DNA from: Alteromonadaceae bacterium XY-R5
GTDB lineage: Bacteria > Pseudomonadota > Gammaproteobacteria > Enterobacterales > Alteromonadaceae
Length of the DNA: 64,000 nt
NCBI GenBank assembly: GCA_001660395.1
Contig: LXWE01000002.1
Coordinates: forward strand, 372,001 to 436,000
Reading direction: 5' to 3'
This document shows, piece by piece, positions 4,339-11,346 of this stretch. How positions within the stretch are numbered: the first letter of the stretch is position 1; every line of letters begins with the position of its first letter. The translations under genes and the position numbers were made by a program. Under the pieces are notes generated by a model. The model was not told the DNA's origin and searched no databases. It saw only the letters and a list, made by a program, of their open reading frames with translations.

Positions 4339-5148
4339 TTATGCTTTGTTAGTGGCGGCTTTCATCTCGCGCACGAAGTGGCCTAATTGTGCCAGCATTT
4401 GCTCGGTGTTTGCCAGATTTGCTTCTACCAAATTTACCGTCGCCGAGCCAGAAATGGCGCCAGCAGCCCCGGCAGTAATGGCATCTTTCACCTGTTCTGG
4501 TTTAGAAATGCCAAAGCCCAGCAGCGCGGGCGCTGCATTCACGTCACGCAGTTTTGCCACCAGTTCGCTGGCCGGCATAGAGGCTGCGGTTTCGGCACCT
4601 GTGACACCGGCGCGACCGAGCAGATAAGTGTAACCCGCCGAATGTTCACCAATGCCGGCAAAGGTTTCATCACTGGCGTTTGGCGGCGCGATCAGGATTT
4701 GGTCGATGCCATATTGTTTGGCTGCGGCCAAAAATGGCTTGGCTTCACGCAGGGGCACATCGGCCACCAGAATGGAATCTACGCCTGCTTCGGCGGCATG
4801 GGCGTAAAAGCCATCAATACCAGGGCCCATTACCAGGTTGCTGTACAGCAGCAAGCCGACGGGGATATCCGGGTTGGTTTCGCGCAGCTTTTTCAGCAGG
4901 TCTAAACAGGCTTTGGGCGTCACGCCTTTATCCAGTGCACGAATAGCCGCCTTTTGAATGGTGGGGCCATCGGCAATAGGATCAGAAAACGGAATACCCA
5001 GCTCCAGCGCATCGGCACCGTTATCAATCAGGGTTTGGATGATCTCTAGGCTGGTGTCTAAATCCGGATCGCCAATCATCACGAAAGGTACAAAGGCACC
5101 CTGGTTGGCCGCGGCCAGGCGGGTGAACATCTTGTTGTATCTACTCAC
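4339..5148 (-). CDS. trpA: Tryptophan synthase alpha subunit
   Basis: A 269-aa TIM barrel converting indole-3-glycerol phosphate to indole and glyceraldehyde 3-phosphate; the indole is channelled to TrpB. The catalytic Glu lies in [19 protein letters not shown] (near residues 47-65), where the catalytic Asp is also present. The phosphate-binding loops appear as LLGRAGVTG (near 176-184) and [10 protein letters not shown] (near 211-220). Length matches E. coli TrpA (268 aa). It overlaps the 3' end of trpB by 8 bp, consistent with translational coupling of the two subunits. Confidence 0.98.
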
Positions 5149-6328
5149 CGAAATTTACTCCTAAAATGCTTTGTACGTGGGCGAGATCTTTGTCGCCGCG
5201 GCCTGACAGGTTAACCACAATAATGGTGTCGTCTTCGGCTTCATCGGCCATATTCAGGGCATGAGCCAGGGCGTGAGAGGATTCTAACGCCGGGATAATC
5301 CCTTCTTTTTTCGCCAGCAGTTGGAAGGCATTCAACGCTTCGGCATCGGTAATCGACACATACTCCGCACGGCCAGTGTCATGTAAGTGAGCATGCTGTG
5401 GGCCCACGGCTGGATAGTCGAGACCGGCAGACACTGAGTAAGACTCTTCAATCTGGCCGTTTTCATCCTGCATGATGTAACTATAGGTACCGTGCAAAAT
5501 GCCTTTGCTGCCGGTGGCCATAGCGGCACCGTGCATATGGGTGTGGATGCCTTTACCGCCGGGTTCAACGCCCACCAGTTTCACCTCTGGTGAATCAATA
5601 AAATCAGCAAACATGCCGATGGCGTTTGAACCGCCGCCCACGGCAGCAACTACGGCATCGGGCAGGCGGCCTTCTTTTTCCATGATTTGCGCGCGGGTTT
5701 CTTCGCCTATCATACGGTGGAATTCACGCACGATAGTAGGGAAGGGGTGTGGACCCGCAGCCGTGCCCAACAGGTAGTGGGCGCGATCATAGCTGGCAGA
5801 CCAGTCACGCAGGGCTTCGTTTACCGCATCTTTGAGGGTGCCTGAGCCAGAGTTTACCGGGATCACTTCTGCGCCCATTAAGCGCATACGGAACACGTTC
5901 GGCGCCTGACGCTCAACGTCTTTGGCACCCATGTAAATACGGGCTTTTAAACCCAGCAAGGCACAGGCTAAGGCTGTTGCCACACCGTGCTGACCAGCGC
6001 CGGTTTCGGCGATAACTTCGGTTTTACCCATGCGTTTGGTCAGCAGGGCTTGACCTAACACCTGGTTAGTCTTATGGGCACCACCGTGAAGTAAGTCTTC
6101 ACGTTTTAAATACAGCTTCACCTTCGGGTTAGAAACCAGATTTTTGGTCAGGGTCATGGCCGTTGGGCGACCCGCGTAGTCGGTGAGCAATCCGATAAAT
6201 TCTTTTTGGAATTCAGGATCATTCTGGGCATCGATATAAGCCTGCTCCAGCTGGTCCAGGGCCGGGATCAGCAGCTCTGGCACATACATGCCGCCGTAAT
6301 CGCCAAATTTTGGATCAAGTTTGTTCAT
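5141..6328 (-). CDS. trpB: Tryptophan synthase beta subunit
   Basis: A 395-aa PLP enzyme that condenses indole with L-serine. The PLP lysine lies in [14 protein letters not shown] (near residues 80-93), the catalytic Glu in AETGAGQHG (near 107-115), and the phosphate-binding [10 protein letters not shown] segment is near 231-240. Length is typical (E. coli 397 aa). It is in the trp operon, 31 bp after trpCF and overlapping trpA by 8 bp. Nothing suggests loss of function. Confidence 0.98.
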
Positions 6329-6359: not shown

Positions 6360-7742
6360 TCAGTATTGTCTTAATAAGGTAAATAATTGCGCGATTTTCT
6401 CGGCGCTTTTCTGACCCGGTGCGGTTTCCACTCCCGAGTTCACATCCAGTAATCCCATGCCTAAACCGGCTGCGGTTTGAATATTGTCCGGGCTTAATCC
6501 ACCGGCCAGGGCCAGCTGAGACTTATCGCTGATTTTAGCCAGCAGTTGCCAGTCAAACGTCTGACCCGTGCCACCGCTTTGATTGCCGACTTTGCAATCA
6601 AGTAATACGCAGTCCACGCCTTGTGCGTTCAGTTCCGGCAGGCTATCGGTTACGCCTTTGGCCTGCCAAATCTGGCAATCCGCTGGCAGTAATGGCCGCA
6701 ACGCATCGATATACGCCTGATCTTCACTGCCATGCAGTTGCACTGCAGTTAAGCCAAGCGTCTCGGCAGCGTGAGCGACCACATTTACGGCAGCATTTAC
6801 AAATACGCTGACATATTGCTGTGGCACGGCTGCAACGATTTCAGCCGCCTGGGTCAGGCTGATGGCGCGTTTCGATTGTTCAGCGAAAATGAGTCCTGCG
6901 AAACTGGCAGGGCTGGCGGCCACTGTTTGGGCATCGTCAATGTTGGTAATGCCGCAGATTTTCACTGTGCCAAATAGCAGTTGTTTCACCGCCAGGCTGA
7001 CATTTTTCTGGCTCATCAGAGAGCTGCCCACTAAAAAGCCATCGGCCAGTGGTGCTAATCGACGCACATCCTGCTGGGTATAAATGCCGGATTCAGAAAT
7101 CACCAGCGCATCGGGCGCAGCGGCTTTGATCTTAGGCGCCAGGGCTTCGGTGGTGGCTAAATTTGTGCTCAGGTCGCGTAAATCGCGGTTATTGATGCCG
7201 ATGATTTTTGCACCCAGCTTAACGGCACGGTCGGCTTCTTCTTCATTCGATACTTCGGTGAGCACATCCAGGCTCAGACTCTCGGCGATTTCCGCCATTT
7301 CCTGATACTGAGCATCTGTCAGGACGGACAGCATCAGCAAAATCCCATCGGCGCGGTAGTGGCGGGCCAGATAGACCTGATAGGGATCGACAAAGAAGTC
7401 TTTGTTCAGCACAGGCTGCGTCAGTCGGTCACGCACATAAGGTAAATACTCAAATTTACCCTGAAAGTATTTGTGCTCCGTGAGTACCGAAATGCAGCTG
7501 GCATAAGGGGCGTAGGCGGCGATGATTTCGTCCAGCTCAAATGGCTCGCGGATCAGACCCTTAGACGGCGAGGCCTTTTTACACTCTAAAATGTAACCGG
7601 CTTCGGGTTTGGCCAGCGCATCGTAGAAGCTGCGATCTGACGGCGTTAACTCATCAATAAAGCTTGCCAGCGGCTTTTGCTGCTTTAATTCGGCAATATC
7701 CAGCGTGCGGTCGGCGCAGATTTTCTCTAATACATTCGGCAT
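6360..7742 (-). CDS. trpCF: Bifunctional TrpC/TrpF (IGPS and PRAI fusion)
   Basis: A 460-aa fusion of two consecutive TIM-barrel enzymes of tryptophan synthesis. Residues 1-255 are indole-3-glycerol-phosphate synthase ([14 protein letters not shown] near 53-66, [15 protein letters not shown] near 113-127, INNRDLRDL near 183-191). Residues ~258-460 are phosphoribosylanthranilate isomerase, starting with the catalytic Cys motif [13 protein letters not shown] and ending with LAGGLSPDN and DVNSGVE. In E. coli the same fusion (called trpC) is 453 aa. The gene follows trpD with a single base between stop and start codons. Confidence 0.97.
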
Positions 7743-7743
7743 C

Positions 7744-8763
7744 TTACTGTTCCTGACTGGTGGCGGCCATGGCCTTAATGGTGGCTAGCGGCTTACCGCT
7801 TTGCATGGCATCCAGCGCCATCTGCGCGCCAGCTTTGTAGCTGTCGGCTTTGCCACAGATAAATAATAAGGCGCCGGCGTTCATGGCCACGGCATCACGA
7901 TGGGCGCTTTCGCCTTTACCTGCCAATACGGCTTCAATCATGGCTTTGTTTTCGGCAGGTTCACCGCCTTTAATCGCTTCTAACGGTGCGCTTTGCAGGC
8001 CGAAGGTTTCCGGCGTCAGGGTTTCGCGAATTAACTCGCCATTACTAATGCGGATGCATTCAGACGGGCCGTGCAGCGCCAGTTCGTCCAGACCACTGCC
8101 ATGCACTACGATGGCGTTTTGATAACCCAGCAGTTTCAGGGTTTCGGCAAAGGGTTGCAACAACGCCGGGGTATAAACGCCGATCATCATATGGCTGGGA
8201 TGAGCCGGGTTCGCTAACGGGCCAAGCACGTTAAAAATCGTGCGGGTTTTAAGTGCCTGACGTACCGGGATCGCGTGCTTAAAGCCAGTGTGGTAATTTG
8301 GGGCGAACAAGAAGCACAGATTGGTTTTATCTAAACAGTTACGGGCGGTTTGTGCCGACATGGTCAGATTGACGCCAAACTGGTTAAATAAATCGGCCGA
8401 ACCTGATTTGCTCGACACGCTACGGTTACCGTGCTTGGCCACCTTTTGGCCACAGCTGGCAGCGACGATAGCGGCAGCCGAGCTGATATTGATGGTGTGG
8501 TGGCCATCGCCGCCTGTGCCAACGATATCGGCAAAGTCATATTCGGGCGTGGGGAAAGGCGCGGCATTTTCTACCAAGGCGCGGGCGGCACCGGCGATTT
8601 CTTCCGGGGTTTCGCCTTTAATTTTTAGCGCCGTTAACAGCGCCGCCATTTGCACCGGATCCATGGCGCCTTGCATGATGGCACTGAACAGCTCGGTCAT
8701 CTGGGCTTTATCCAGGGACTGGCCCTGATACAGGGCTTCCAGTGAGGCCAATATGTTACTCAT
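7744..8763 (-). CDS. trpD: Anthranilate phosphoribosyltransferase
   Basis: A 339-aa enzyme transferring phosphoribose from PRPP to anthranilate. Diagnostic motifs are [15 protein letters not shown] (near residues 81-95), [16 protein letters not shown] (near 108-123) and the [12 protein letters not shown] segment (near 222-233). Here trpD stands alone, not fused to the TrpG glutaminase as in E. coli. It overlaps trpG by 8 bp, consistent with coupling, and is followed by trpCF after one base. Confidence 0.98.
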
Positions 8764-9364
8764 GAGACGCTCCTTGCAATAAATAGTCGATACTTTGCGC
8801 CAGCAACTGGCTACCCTGGGCCGTTAACACCGACTCTGGGTGAAACTGAAAGCCTAACATTTTGTCGCCGCTATGGCATACCGCCATAGGTACCTGATTG
8901 ACCTGGGCCAATACTTCCAGCTCTGCCGGCATTTGGGTGGCCATTAAAGAATGATAGCGCGCCACTGGCAAGGGATTGGGTAAGCCGCTGAACATGCGAT
9001 CCGCACTGTGCTGCACAGGCGAGGATTTACCGTGCATCACCTGCTCCGCTCGGCCCACTGTACCACCGTAACTTTCGACGATGGCCTGATGGCCTAAACA
9101 TATGCCCAGTACCGGGAATTCACCGCGCACTTTTTTCAGCAGCGCGGGCATACAGCCAGCATCGGCAGGGGCGCCAGGACCAGGAGAAAGCATCAGCAGC
9201 ACAGGCTGTTCTTTGGCTTTTACTTGCATCTGGCTGTAAATTTTATCGGCATCCACCGAGTTACGGTAAATGATCAGCTCAATGCCTAAACCACGTAATT
9301 CATCTACCAGGTTGTAGGTGAATGAATCGAAGTTATCGATGAGAAAAATACAAGGCTGAGACAT
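8756..9364 (-). CDS. trpG: Anthranilate synthase glutamine amidotransferase
   Basis: A 202-aa class I glutamine amidotransferase that supplies ammonia to TrpE. The nucleophilic Cys lies in [11 protein letters not shown] (near residues 82-92), and the His-Glu of the triad in [10 protein letters not shown] (near 173-182). [12 protein letters not shown] (near 10-21) is the typical N-terminal motif of TrpG/PabA. Its place directly between trpE (1-bp overlap) and trpD (8-bp overlap) argues for TrpG rather than PabA, although dual use with PabB cannot be excluded. Confidence 0.97.
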
Positions 9365-10974
9365 TAGCGTTGCTCCTTGTCTTGCGGCTTAACTGGCGTA
9401 TGGGCGCTAATAATGGCGCTGATCACGGCCTGGGCCTTATTGCGGGTTTCATCGGCTTCGGCCTGCGGGTTGGAGTCATATACCACACCGGCACCGGCCT
9501 GAATGTGGGCAATGCCATCTTTAACAAAGGCCGAGCGGATCACGATACAGGTATCCATATCGCCCTGACCATTGATGTAACCGACGGCGCCACCGTAGCT
9601 GCCGCGCCGCTCTTTTTCTACTTCGCGGATCAGGCTGGCGGCGCTGACTTTGGGCGCACCCACTAAGGTGCCCATGTTCATACAGGCCTGATAAGCGTGC
9701 AGGGCATCTAAATCATCTCTTAGCTGACCTACGACGCGCGAGACCAAATGCATGACGTGGGAATAGCGGTCGACTTTAAGCAAGTCTTTCACGTAACGAG
9801 AGCCCGGGCGGCTGACCTTCGCTACATCGTTACGGGCCAAATCCACCAACATAATGTGTTCGGCTTTTTCCTTTTCGTCCTGGCGTAAATCCAGTTCGAT
9901 GCGGCTGTCTAAATCTAAATTAATGCTGCCGTCGGCGTTCTTACCGCGCGGACGGGTGCCGGCTATGGGGTAAATCTCTACCTGATTGCTGGCCTGCTCG
10001 TATTTAATCGCCGATTCTGGCGAGGCACCAAACATGCAAAAATCGTCATCCTGCAGGAAGAACATGTAAGGGCTGGGGTTTTGCTGTTTGAGTTTCTGGT
10101 AGGCTAAATAAGGCTGAGGGCAGGGCAGGCTGAAAATACGTGACGGTACGACCTGGAAAATATCCCCTGCCAGAATGTGTTCTTTTAAATCCAGCACATC
10201 CTGCTTAAACACCTCGTCAGATTTATTCATGTGCAAATCGGACTGGCTGACGGTTTGGCTGATGTCACTGGCAACTGGCGTCAGATTCAGCAATTGCTGT
10301 TTGATTTGCTCTAAACGCTGACTCACAGCAAAGTACTGCTGGCTGATACTGGGGCCGCTGAACACACTGCCAATCAATTCAGTGGTTTGGGCCTGATGGT
10401 CAATCAGCAGCAGGGTTTCAGCTAAGTAGAATACGAAATCCGGACAGCTGTTAGCACTATCGGCAACTTTTGGTAACTTCTCGAAACTGGCCAGCAGGTC
10501 GTAAGCAAAAGCGCCGCCTAAGAATACCGCTTCGGGATGCTGGCGCAGGGGCTGGATTTGCTGAACTATTGTGCGCAGTGCATCAAACACCGCCGGGGCT
10601 TTCAGGCGGCTGTCTTCATCCAGACTGGCGTCAGCCTCAGCAAAGGTCAGCAGCAGTTGCTTGTCGGTTTGCACATCGCAGCTTACGCCTGCGGGTAAAT
10701 GTTCGGTGAACAGCGCCAATACGCCTAAGCCGTTGGCGGTCAGGGCGGTAATAGTGACCTGATTGCCCCAACATTCGAGTTTAACCGCGGCATCTGCCAG
10801 CAGCAGACTTTTGAGGTTGTCTTTGCTGTCGATCTCGGCAGATTCTAACAACAGATTATTGCCACGTCCGGCGCATAACTGCTGGTAAGCCTGCAGGGGA
10901 TCAGCGACATATGGACCAGGGACGATAAGGGTTTCGACCTTGCCTGGCTTTTCGCTTAATTCGGCTAAACTCAT
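9364..10974 (-). CDS. trpE: Anthranilate synthase component I
   Basis: A 536-aa chorismate-utilising enzyme making anthranilate with TrpG. The N-terminal domain carries the feedback motif LLLESAEI (near residues 40-47) that binds tryptophan in TrpE. The C-terminal chorismate-binding domain shows YPIAGTRPRG (near 335-344), ELDLRQDEKEKAEHIMLVD (near 361-379) and GAGVVYDSNP (near 499-508). Length is slightly above E. coli TrpE (520 aa). It is the first structural gene of the operon, behind the trpL attenuator, so expression is probably controlled by charged tRNA-Trp and activity by tryptophan feedback. Confidence 0.97.
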   Translation of the reverse strand: MSLAELSEKPGKVETLIVPGPYVADPLQAYQQLCAGRGNNLLLESAEIDSKDNLKSLLLADAAVKLECWGNQVTITALTANGLGVLALFTEHLPAGVSCDVQTDKQLLLTFAEADASLDEDSRLKAPAVFDALRTIVQQIQPLRQHPEAVFLGGAFAYDLLASFEKLPKVADSANSCPDFVFYLAETLLLIDHQAQTTELIGSVFSGPSISQQYFAVSQRLEQIKQQLLNLTPVASDISQTVSQSDLHMNKSDEVFKQDVLDLKEHILAGDIFQVVPSRIFSLPCPQPYLAYQKLKQQNPSPYMFFLQDDDFCMFGASPESAIKYEQASNQVEIYPIAGTRPRGKNADGSINLDLDSRIELDLRQDEKEKAEHIMLVDLARNDVAKVSRPGSRYVKDLLKVDRYSHVMHLVSRVVGQLRDDLDALHAYQACMNMGTLVGAPKVSAASLIREVEKERRGSYGGAVGYINGQGDMDTCIVIRSAFVKDGIAHIQAGAGVVYDSNPQAEADETRNKAQAVISAIISAHTPVKPQDKEQR

Positions 10975-11028: not shown

Positions 11029-11056
11029 AAAAAAAGCCCGTCTGGGAAGACGGGCT
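11029..11056 (-). terminator. trp attenuator terminator (3:4 hairpin)
   Basis: On the minus strand AGCCCGTCT and AGACGGGCT form a perfect 9-bp stem (plus-strand arms 11048-11056 and 11035-11043) with a 4-nt loop, followed by seven T residues (complement of 11029-11035). It lies between the trpL stop codon and trpE. Its first arm can instead pair with 11091-11098, the antiterminator, so it is the conditional terminator of the trp operon. Confidence 0.93.
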
Positions 11057-11070
11057 TTTCTGATTCTTTT

Positions 11071-11186
11071 GCGCCAATACACGCACACACAGCCCGTCAC
11101 TGAGGGATGTGCCACCACCAAATAGTACGGATTGTAGTGTGTGCTAACTGTGTCATCTTCTTAGATTCACTCTGCGTATTGGTGCG
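11071..11186 (-). promoter_or_regulatory. trp leader RNA: 1:2 and 2:3 pairing segments
   Basis: Within the leader, GCACACAC (plus 11137-11144, inside trpL) is complementary to GTGTGTGC (plus 11083-11090), the 1:2 pause hairpin. GACGGGCT (plus 11091-11098) is complementary to AGCCCGTC (plus 11049-11056), the 2:3 antiterminator. An outer helix is also possible between plus 11174-11186 and 11071-11084 (CGCACCAATACGC with GCGTGTATTGGCGC, one bulge), bracketing the leader peptide. I found no convincing TrpR operator. Confidence 0.85.
11097..11156 (-). CDS. trpL: trp operon leader peptide
   Basis: A 19-codon reading frame encodes MTQLAHTTIRTIWWWHIPQ, with three consecutive UGG codons at positions 13-15. 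It starts at the ATG at 11156 and stops at the TGA at 11097-11099, which lies at the start of pairing segment 2. A ribosome stalled at the Trp codons would cover segment 1 and allow the 2:3 antiterminator; a ribosome reaching the stop codon would cover segment 2 and allow the 3:4 terminator. Position, size and Trp content match enterobacterial trpL (14 aa, two Trp). Confidence 0.93.
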   Translation of the reverse strand: MTQLAHTTIRTIWWWHIPQ

Positions 11187-11263: not shown

Positions 11264-11346
11264 GTCGGCATTGCCCCCGACTTGGCTATAGAAGAAAACA
11301 AATCGCCGCCGCTGTCAATACGTAAAATGGTTATAAGTTAAACTTT

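Follow-up and report, generated by a model that had tools for sequence, protein, structure and literature searches.

The window, a stretch of 64,000 nucleotides from Alteromonadaceae bacterium XY-R5 whose positions are used throughout, very probably holds a transcription attenuator for the trp operon that is of the canonical, ribosome-mediated kind, the behavior of the ribosome being the part that we infer. The preliminary description had read a complete trp attenuator with a three-Trp leader peptide from the letters, and all of its parts were recovered here: four segments, the WWW, the T-run, the terminator and a trp operon downstream. The leader lies on the minus strand, with its start codon at 11156, 182 nt upstream of the trpE start codon (10974). 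Its open reading frame (11097..11156, minus strand) consists of 19 codons specifying MTQLAHTTIRTIWWWHIPQ and a stop, with three Trp codons at 11120-11112. A WWW within a 19-aa frame ahead of trpE, the latter identified by Pfam, is what the leader of a ribosome-mediated trp attenuator should contain. Downstream, the operon is complete and its genes stand in one row on the minus strand, as assigned by Pfam domains and open reading frames: trpE as gene 1 (9364..10974), trpG (8756-9364), trpD (7744-8763), trpC/F (6360-7742), trpB (5141-6328) and trpA (4339-5148). Upstream of the leader a gene with a PHP domain (Pfam) is oriented divergently.

The elements of the attenuator, the overlap of its alternative helices, their stability and the comparison with relatives were calculated in this work. 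All elements lie on the minus strand. The core of segment 1, CACAUCCC (11104..11111), starts directly after the last Trp codon and pairs with 11095-11088 when this stretch is folded alone; this core arm places the 1:2 helix where a ribosome at the Trp codons can reach it, as attenuation demands. Segment 2, GACGGGCU (11091..11098), can pair with segment 3, AAAAGCCCGUCU (11048..11059, from sequence and MFE), to give a 2:3 antiterminator of 8 pairs (11098-11091 with 11056-11049, from sequence). Segment 4, AGACGGGCUUUU (11029..11043, from sequence and MFE), contains the T-run 11035-11029 and completes an intrinsic terminator in which 11059-11048 pairs with 11043-11032 over 12 pairs, the last four being A:U pairs with the T-run; this 3:4 helix is present in the MFE fold. 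Segment 3 is common to 2:3 and 3:4, which makes the two helices mutually exclusive, and the T-run follows 3:4, the arrangement expected of an attenuator. The alternative pairings 1:2, 2:3 and 3:4 listed in the preliminary description were thus all confirmed from sequence and folding. In the scanner output the terminator palindrome appears on the plus strand only; on the minus strand its stem consumes part of the T-run.

The 1:2 core, seen in the folds of many relatives, is absent from the full MFE fold of the window, where it is replaced by pairing of 11131-11124 (codons 9-11) with 11101-11093. The same fold contains a long 1:2 helix, with GCACACAC (11137..11144) as its 5' arm and 11090-11083 as the partner. 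The latter is part of a distal strand (11071..11090, from MFE folds and shuffles) that carries first GUGUGUGC, the 3' arm of the long 1:2 helix, and then GUGUAUUGG.GC, the 3' arm of the outer helix considered below.

A search of the window with Rfam at the gathering cut-off (41 bits) returned no match. The RF00513 Trp_leader model aligns end to end (model positions 1-100) with the window leader at 34.4 bits (E 1.9e-5), below the 41-bit cut-off, and by score the leader is not a member of RF00513. Searching the whole genome of the organism with RF00513 gave 75 matches at E<=10, among which one, L192, was inspected. This best match (about 1500-1622, 37.9 bits), scoring above the trp leader of the window, is probably a thr attenuator, with a Thr/Ile-rich frame and an aspartokinase-like open reading frame downstream, both read by eye. 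Because a thr-type leader in the same genome scores higher, the RF00513 score is not specific.

Pausing, the transcription start site and the effect of the outer helix on expression are, like the path of the ribosome, matters of interpretation and are worded as such in what follows. With charged tRNA-Trp present, a ribosome would pass the Trp codons to the stop codon and cover segment 2, which would allow the 3:4 terminator to form. With Trp in short supply, it would stall on the Trp codons and cover segment 1, the 2:3 helix would form, and transcription would enter trpE. With no ribosome on the leader, the outer helix would join 1:2 and the long 1:2 helix in one closed domain, leaving 3:4 to form and termination to occur by default.

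The outer helix had been proposed, in the same preliminary description, to enclose the whole leader peptide and to provide either an extra control layer or a more stable pause structure. Its 5' arm, GC.CCAAUACGC (11174..11185, minus strand; MFE folds and shuffles), does pair with the distal strand in the MFE fold: 11182-11174 is matched to 11082-11074 and, beyond a single mismatch, 11185-11184 to 11072-11071. The outer helix directly adjoins the long 1:2 helix, which gives the distal strand an unbroken run of 17 paired bases. Folds containing the outer helix, computed on a single strand and thus blind to RNA polymerase and the ribosome, reach -63.8 over 164 nt (z -6.4) and -43.4 over 123 nt (z -3.3), values as low being found in 0/200 shuffles in either case. 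The energy of the domain is -43.4 kcal/mol with the upstream arm and -31.3 without it, a gain of about 12 kcal/mol, and an energy as low was found in only 1/500 shuffles of the 33-nt upstream stretch and 3/500 of the distal strand. The window ranks third among 124 leaders in stabilization by the distal strand (z -4.0). The expected pair count of the helix is weaker evidence, being reached by 53/500 shuffles of the upstream stretch and 14/500 of the distal strand, with p 0.17 in another shuffle scheme. The enclosing helix as such therefore stands in the MFE fold and is extreme in energy, while its pair count is not striking. A duplex-energy test of the distal strand against the upstream UTR gave p 0.51 and was set aside as a test of the outer helix because the UTR is free in it to pair anywhere, probably CCCG with CGGG.

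Our preferred but tentative reading is that the outer helix just stabilizes the ribosome-free state, together with any pause that this state causes. The putative function as a more stable 1:2 structure, envisaged earlier, is compatible with the roughly 12 kcal/mol gained. The extra control layer is weakened, since pairing with the upstream UTR is not a feature of the family and exposure of the start codon in the window is the same as with shuffled sequence, as detailed below.

To place the helix in its family, trpE places were collected from 80 loci in named genomes, 29 further loci and 80 places fetched from 395 family genomes, the named relatives including Paraglaciecola, Aliiglaciecola, Bowmanella, Alteromonas, Glaciecola and Pseudoalteromonas. 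The 190 sequences examined comprise 189 loci (L003-L191) and the window; many of the loci are the same place reached twice, and the genus of the window is represented by one genome, its own. A WWW or WHWW leader was found in 166/190 sequences, repeats included, and 24 were without one. Dropping 47 repeated leaders left 126 leaders in 120 loci, and setting aside two WHWW leaders (L064, L068) left 124 for the structure tests. In a first set of 71 leaders, a crude scan showed 60 to be followed by a hairpin and its T-run; in L053 the hairpin found is not the expected one.

Sixty shuffled versions of the strand after segment 2 were made for each of the 124 leaders. Across the family, this distal strand pairs preferentially with the region from -10 to the AUG (4.62 pairs vs 2.15 shuffled; p<=0.05 in 43/124), somewhat with those codons of the leader that precede the Trp ones (5.97 vs 4.98; 12/124), and not with the upstream UTR (2.95 vs 3.92; 3/124). 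After thinning to 69 leaders of <70% identity, the corresponding numbers are 23/69 for the start region, 5/69 for the codons and 2/69 for the upstream UTR. A duplex-energy test across the family points the same way, with p<=0.05 in 31/124 leaders for the start region and 5/124 upstream. When folding energy is considered, the distal strand stabilizes the leader more than its shuffles do in 30/124 at p<=0.05, about 6 being expected, and in 22/69 after thinning to <70% identity. The main partner in these 30 energy-significant leaders is the start region in 17, the leader codons in 6 and the UTR in 4, with 2 ties and 1 having none. The four with the UTR as main partner are the window, L051, L126 and L135, the last depending on the ATG chosen. 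In addition, L018 has 20 upstream pairs, with p 0.00 on pairs and 0.06 on energy.

It is quite possible, if not our first choice, that the outer helix has no function and that the pairing of a GU-rich distal strand with an AC-rich UTR is a chance event in one species. Among the 124 leaders of the wider family, upstream pairing of the outer-helix type is not enriched (the own genus contributing one genome), the pair count in the window is unremarkable against the upstream shuffles, and the exposure of the start codon is unaffected beyond what shuffles give, all of which suits pairing by chance. Against it stand the extreme energy of the window domain and the bias of the distal strand, across the family, to pair back. 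In our best reading, the outer helix extends the 1:2 anti-antiterminator in a register peculiar to this lineage, one form of a habit seen across the family, whereby the strand beyond segment 2 folds back onto the 5' portion of the leader.

The target of this habit in the relatives raises the question of whether the outer helix acts as a gate on leader translation, closing the initiation region and thereby limiting ribosome loading to about one event at most. For the window we consider this improbable. Its SD and AUG do form part of a small hairpin, enclosed by the junction of the MFE fold, as such a gate would have it. Exposure of the AUG, which is 0.51 without the distal strand, is 0.34 with it; practically the same value is obtained with shuffled ones (0.35, p 0.33), and exposure of positions -14..-5 is hardly lower (0.32 vs 0.36 shuffled, p 0.13). 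The start-region helix of the relatives is absent from the window, with 0.0 expected pairs between its distal strand and -10..AUG. In the family as a whole, the distal strand hides the start codon, the mean unpaired value of the AUG being 0.28 vs 0.43 with shuffled distal strand (p<=0.05 in 41/124; the leaders are related sequences, and the Wilcoxon value of this test is no fair probability). This favors a gate there, as does the covariation described next; a gate of this kind may be what the start-region helix provides in the relatives and what the SD-region helix, which is in the MFE fold, provides in E. coli. Mean exposure of -14..-5 in the family argues against it, being unchanged (0.57 vs 0.56), though 20/124 leaders reach p<=0.05. 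A translation gate is better supported for the relatives than for the window. In Alteromonadaceae, the start-codon-covering bias of the distal strand would couple translation of the leader to termination, a coupling that falls outside the usual four-segment scheme.

Covariation was examined in 35 of the 124 leaders, an aligned set of Alteromonas type with similar peptide length that was chosen by eye once the first structure tests had been run and that leaves out other Alteromonas leaders such as L037, L052 and L053. In this set, the start codon and its neighbors (ten positions) find their partners in the distal strand in one of two registers, offset from each other by 8 columns. Eight or more of the ten pairs are present in 17/35 leaders in one register and 19/35 in the other, and 34/35 have them in at least one. 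The seven registers between the two are used by none of the 35, and registers 106, 120 and 122 by 1, 2 and 7 of 35, respectively. The first register has 25 cells with a two-sided change vs 11.3 in shuffles (0/500) and a covariation score of 0.228, compared with at most 0.104 in slid versions, and it also stands out in cells paired; it is unremarkable in the number of pairs with a two-sided change (3 vs 2.7) and in pair types (11 vs 11.6). The second register is weaker. Its cells paired are 72.6% vs 68.5% (0/500 shuffles), its covariation score of 0.130 is reached by 6/500 shuffles, its two-sided cells number 9 vs 6.7 (89/500 shuffles), and slides of -1 and +2 columns beat it with 0.160 and 0.165.

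For either arm of the outer helix to matter, it has to be transcribed. A presumed trp promoter (11288..11318, minus strand), conserved in relatives, consists of TTGACA (11318-11313) and TTCTAT (11293-11288), 19 nt apart, the second box lying inside TTTGTTTTCTTCTATAG (11302-11286, minus strand). The pattern TTGACN-N14..22-T[TC]CTA[TG] occurs in 96/120 loci, always with a spacing of exactly 19 nt. The distance from the end of the block to the AUG is 131 nt in the window and ranges over 23-318 nt across those 96 of 120 loci. From this block, transcription would start near 11280, giving a predicted 5' UTR of about 124 nt, and both arms of the outer helix would therefore lie within the transcript. 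A start inside 11150-11186, which the preliminary description had named as fatal to the helix, is thus not indicated, as far as the conserved block tells. The second box is a poor match to a sigma-70 -10 element and was not called by the scanner; a sigma-70-like promoter scan found no minus-strand site between 10900 and 11450. The T-rich stretch of the block may bind a regulator. That the transcript instead starts at or inside the 5' arm, from AATAAT (11194-11189) with a start near 11183, so that the helix would either involve the extreme 5' terminus of the transcript or remain unmade, is highly improbable: AATAAT is a fair -10 box and its start, about 27 nt before the AUG, would be near the value for E. 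coli, against which stand the want of a good -35 at the right distance (read by eye), the empty minus-strand scan and the position of the conserved TTGACN-N19-T[TC]CTA[TG] block further upstream in 96/120 loci.

The long 5' UTR also contains a second tiny frame (11241-11206, minus strand), which reads ATG TCT GAA AAA ACC and so on for 11 codons plus a stop. It is preceded by GAGAAG, and a GCCCC stretch just past it folds with the predicted 5' end. The frame and its surroundings are possibly due to chance.

TrpR (PF01371) was not found in the genome of the organism, and in 0/147 sampled family genomes, this one included, did it score above the cut-off, although partial matches under that score occur in eight; the same search was positive for E. 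coli and B. subtilis. With no TrpR above the cut-off in 147 genomes, attenuation may be the main trp-specific control in Alteromonadaceae.

Upstream of trpE of the Pseudoalteromonas type, two complete modules of WWW leader and terminator stand in series, 77-127 nt apart, at 30 of 36 loci. The 36 loci are five named ones (L061, L063, L074, L075, L078), L172, and L201-L230, the best 30 among 60 genomes belonging to a single genus, which was assigned to Pseudoalteromonas on the match of its leaders to the named Pseudoalteromonas ones. Several loci represent one place reached twice, and a count from the peptides gives 21 distinct leader pairs among the 30. With one attenuator behind another, repression could be multiplied in a family seemingly without TrpR.

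A bolder proposal, speculative and rather unlikely in our estimate, is that the trp attenuator of this family, which seems to lack TrpR, carries a gate, the strand after segment 2 having been selected to fold onto the initiation region of the leader so as to allow about one translation per transcript and termination by default, with the outer helix of the window as an independent solution. The target of the fold-back would then be the start codon in Alteromonas, in its two registers 8 columns apart, and the upstream UTR in the species of the window. For the window itself, the preferred reading stays with stabilization of the ribosome-free state by the outer helix.

Compared with known systems, the apparent oddity of the window disappears, and its attenuator is a normal trp attenuator. 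The E. coli trp leader follows the scheme of 1:2, 2:3 and 3:4 helices and has a 5' UTR of about 26 nt; a distal part of the transcript reportedly hinders synthesis of the leader peptide. The view that an outer helix is foreign to the enterobacterial model did not hold: in the MFE fold of the E. coli K-12 leader, GGGUAUC in the ribosome-binding region pairs with GAUACCC just before segment 3 and encloses the leader frame and 1:2. The E. coli attenuator (trpL, RF00513) thus shares with the window a leader frame with Trp codons, a terminator before trpE, an outer helix around the leader frame and, upstream, a gene in divergent orientation (rnm in E. coli, the PHP-domain gene in the window). The two differ in the Trp codons in a row (three in the window, two in E. 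coli), in the outer arm, which lies upstream of the SD in the window whereas that of E. coli includes the SD region, in the 5' UTR, which is longer in the window (about 124 nt as predicted), and in TrpR, for which the genome of the window, unlike E. coli, was negative in the same PF01371 search.

In Shewanella, a predicted regulatory RNA upstream of trpE matches RF00513 (PMC2659441). Within the literature searched, available in part and with most subscription papers outside it (PMC9291695, PMC4833913, PMC12288461 and PMC2659441 included), there was no mention of tandem trp attenuators in Pseudoalteromonas or of start-codon-covering helices in trp leaders of Alteromonadaceae. Lastly, the other Alteromonadaceae (Alteromonas, Paraglaciecola, Bowmanella and others) share with the window the WWW leader, the type of terminator, a CACxxCCC:GGGCxGTG core in many folds and the promoter block in 96/120 loci. 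They differ from it in the partner of the distal strand, which tends to be the start region in the relatives (43/124) and is the upstream UTR in the window.
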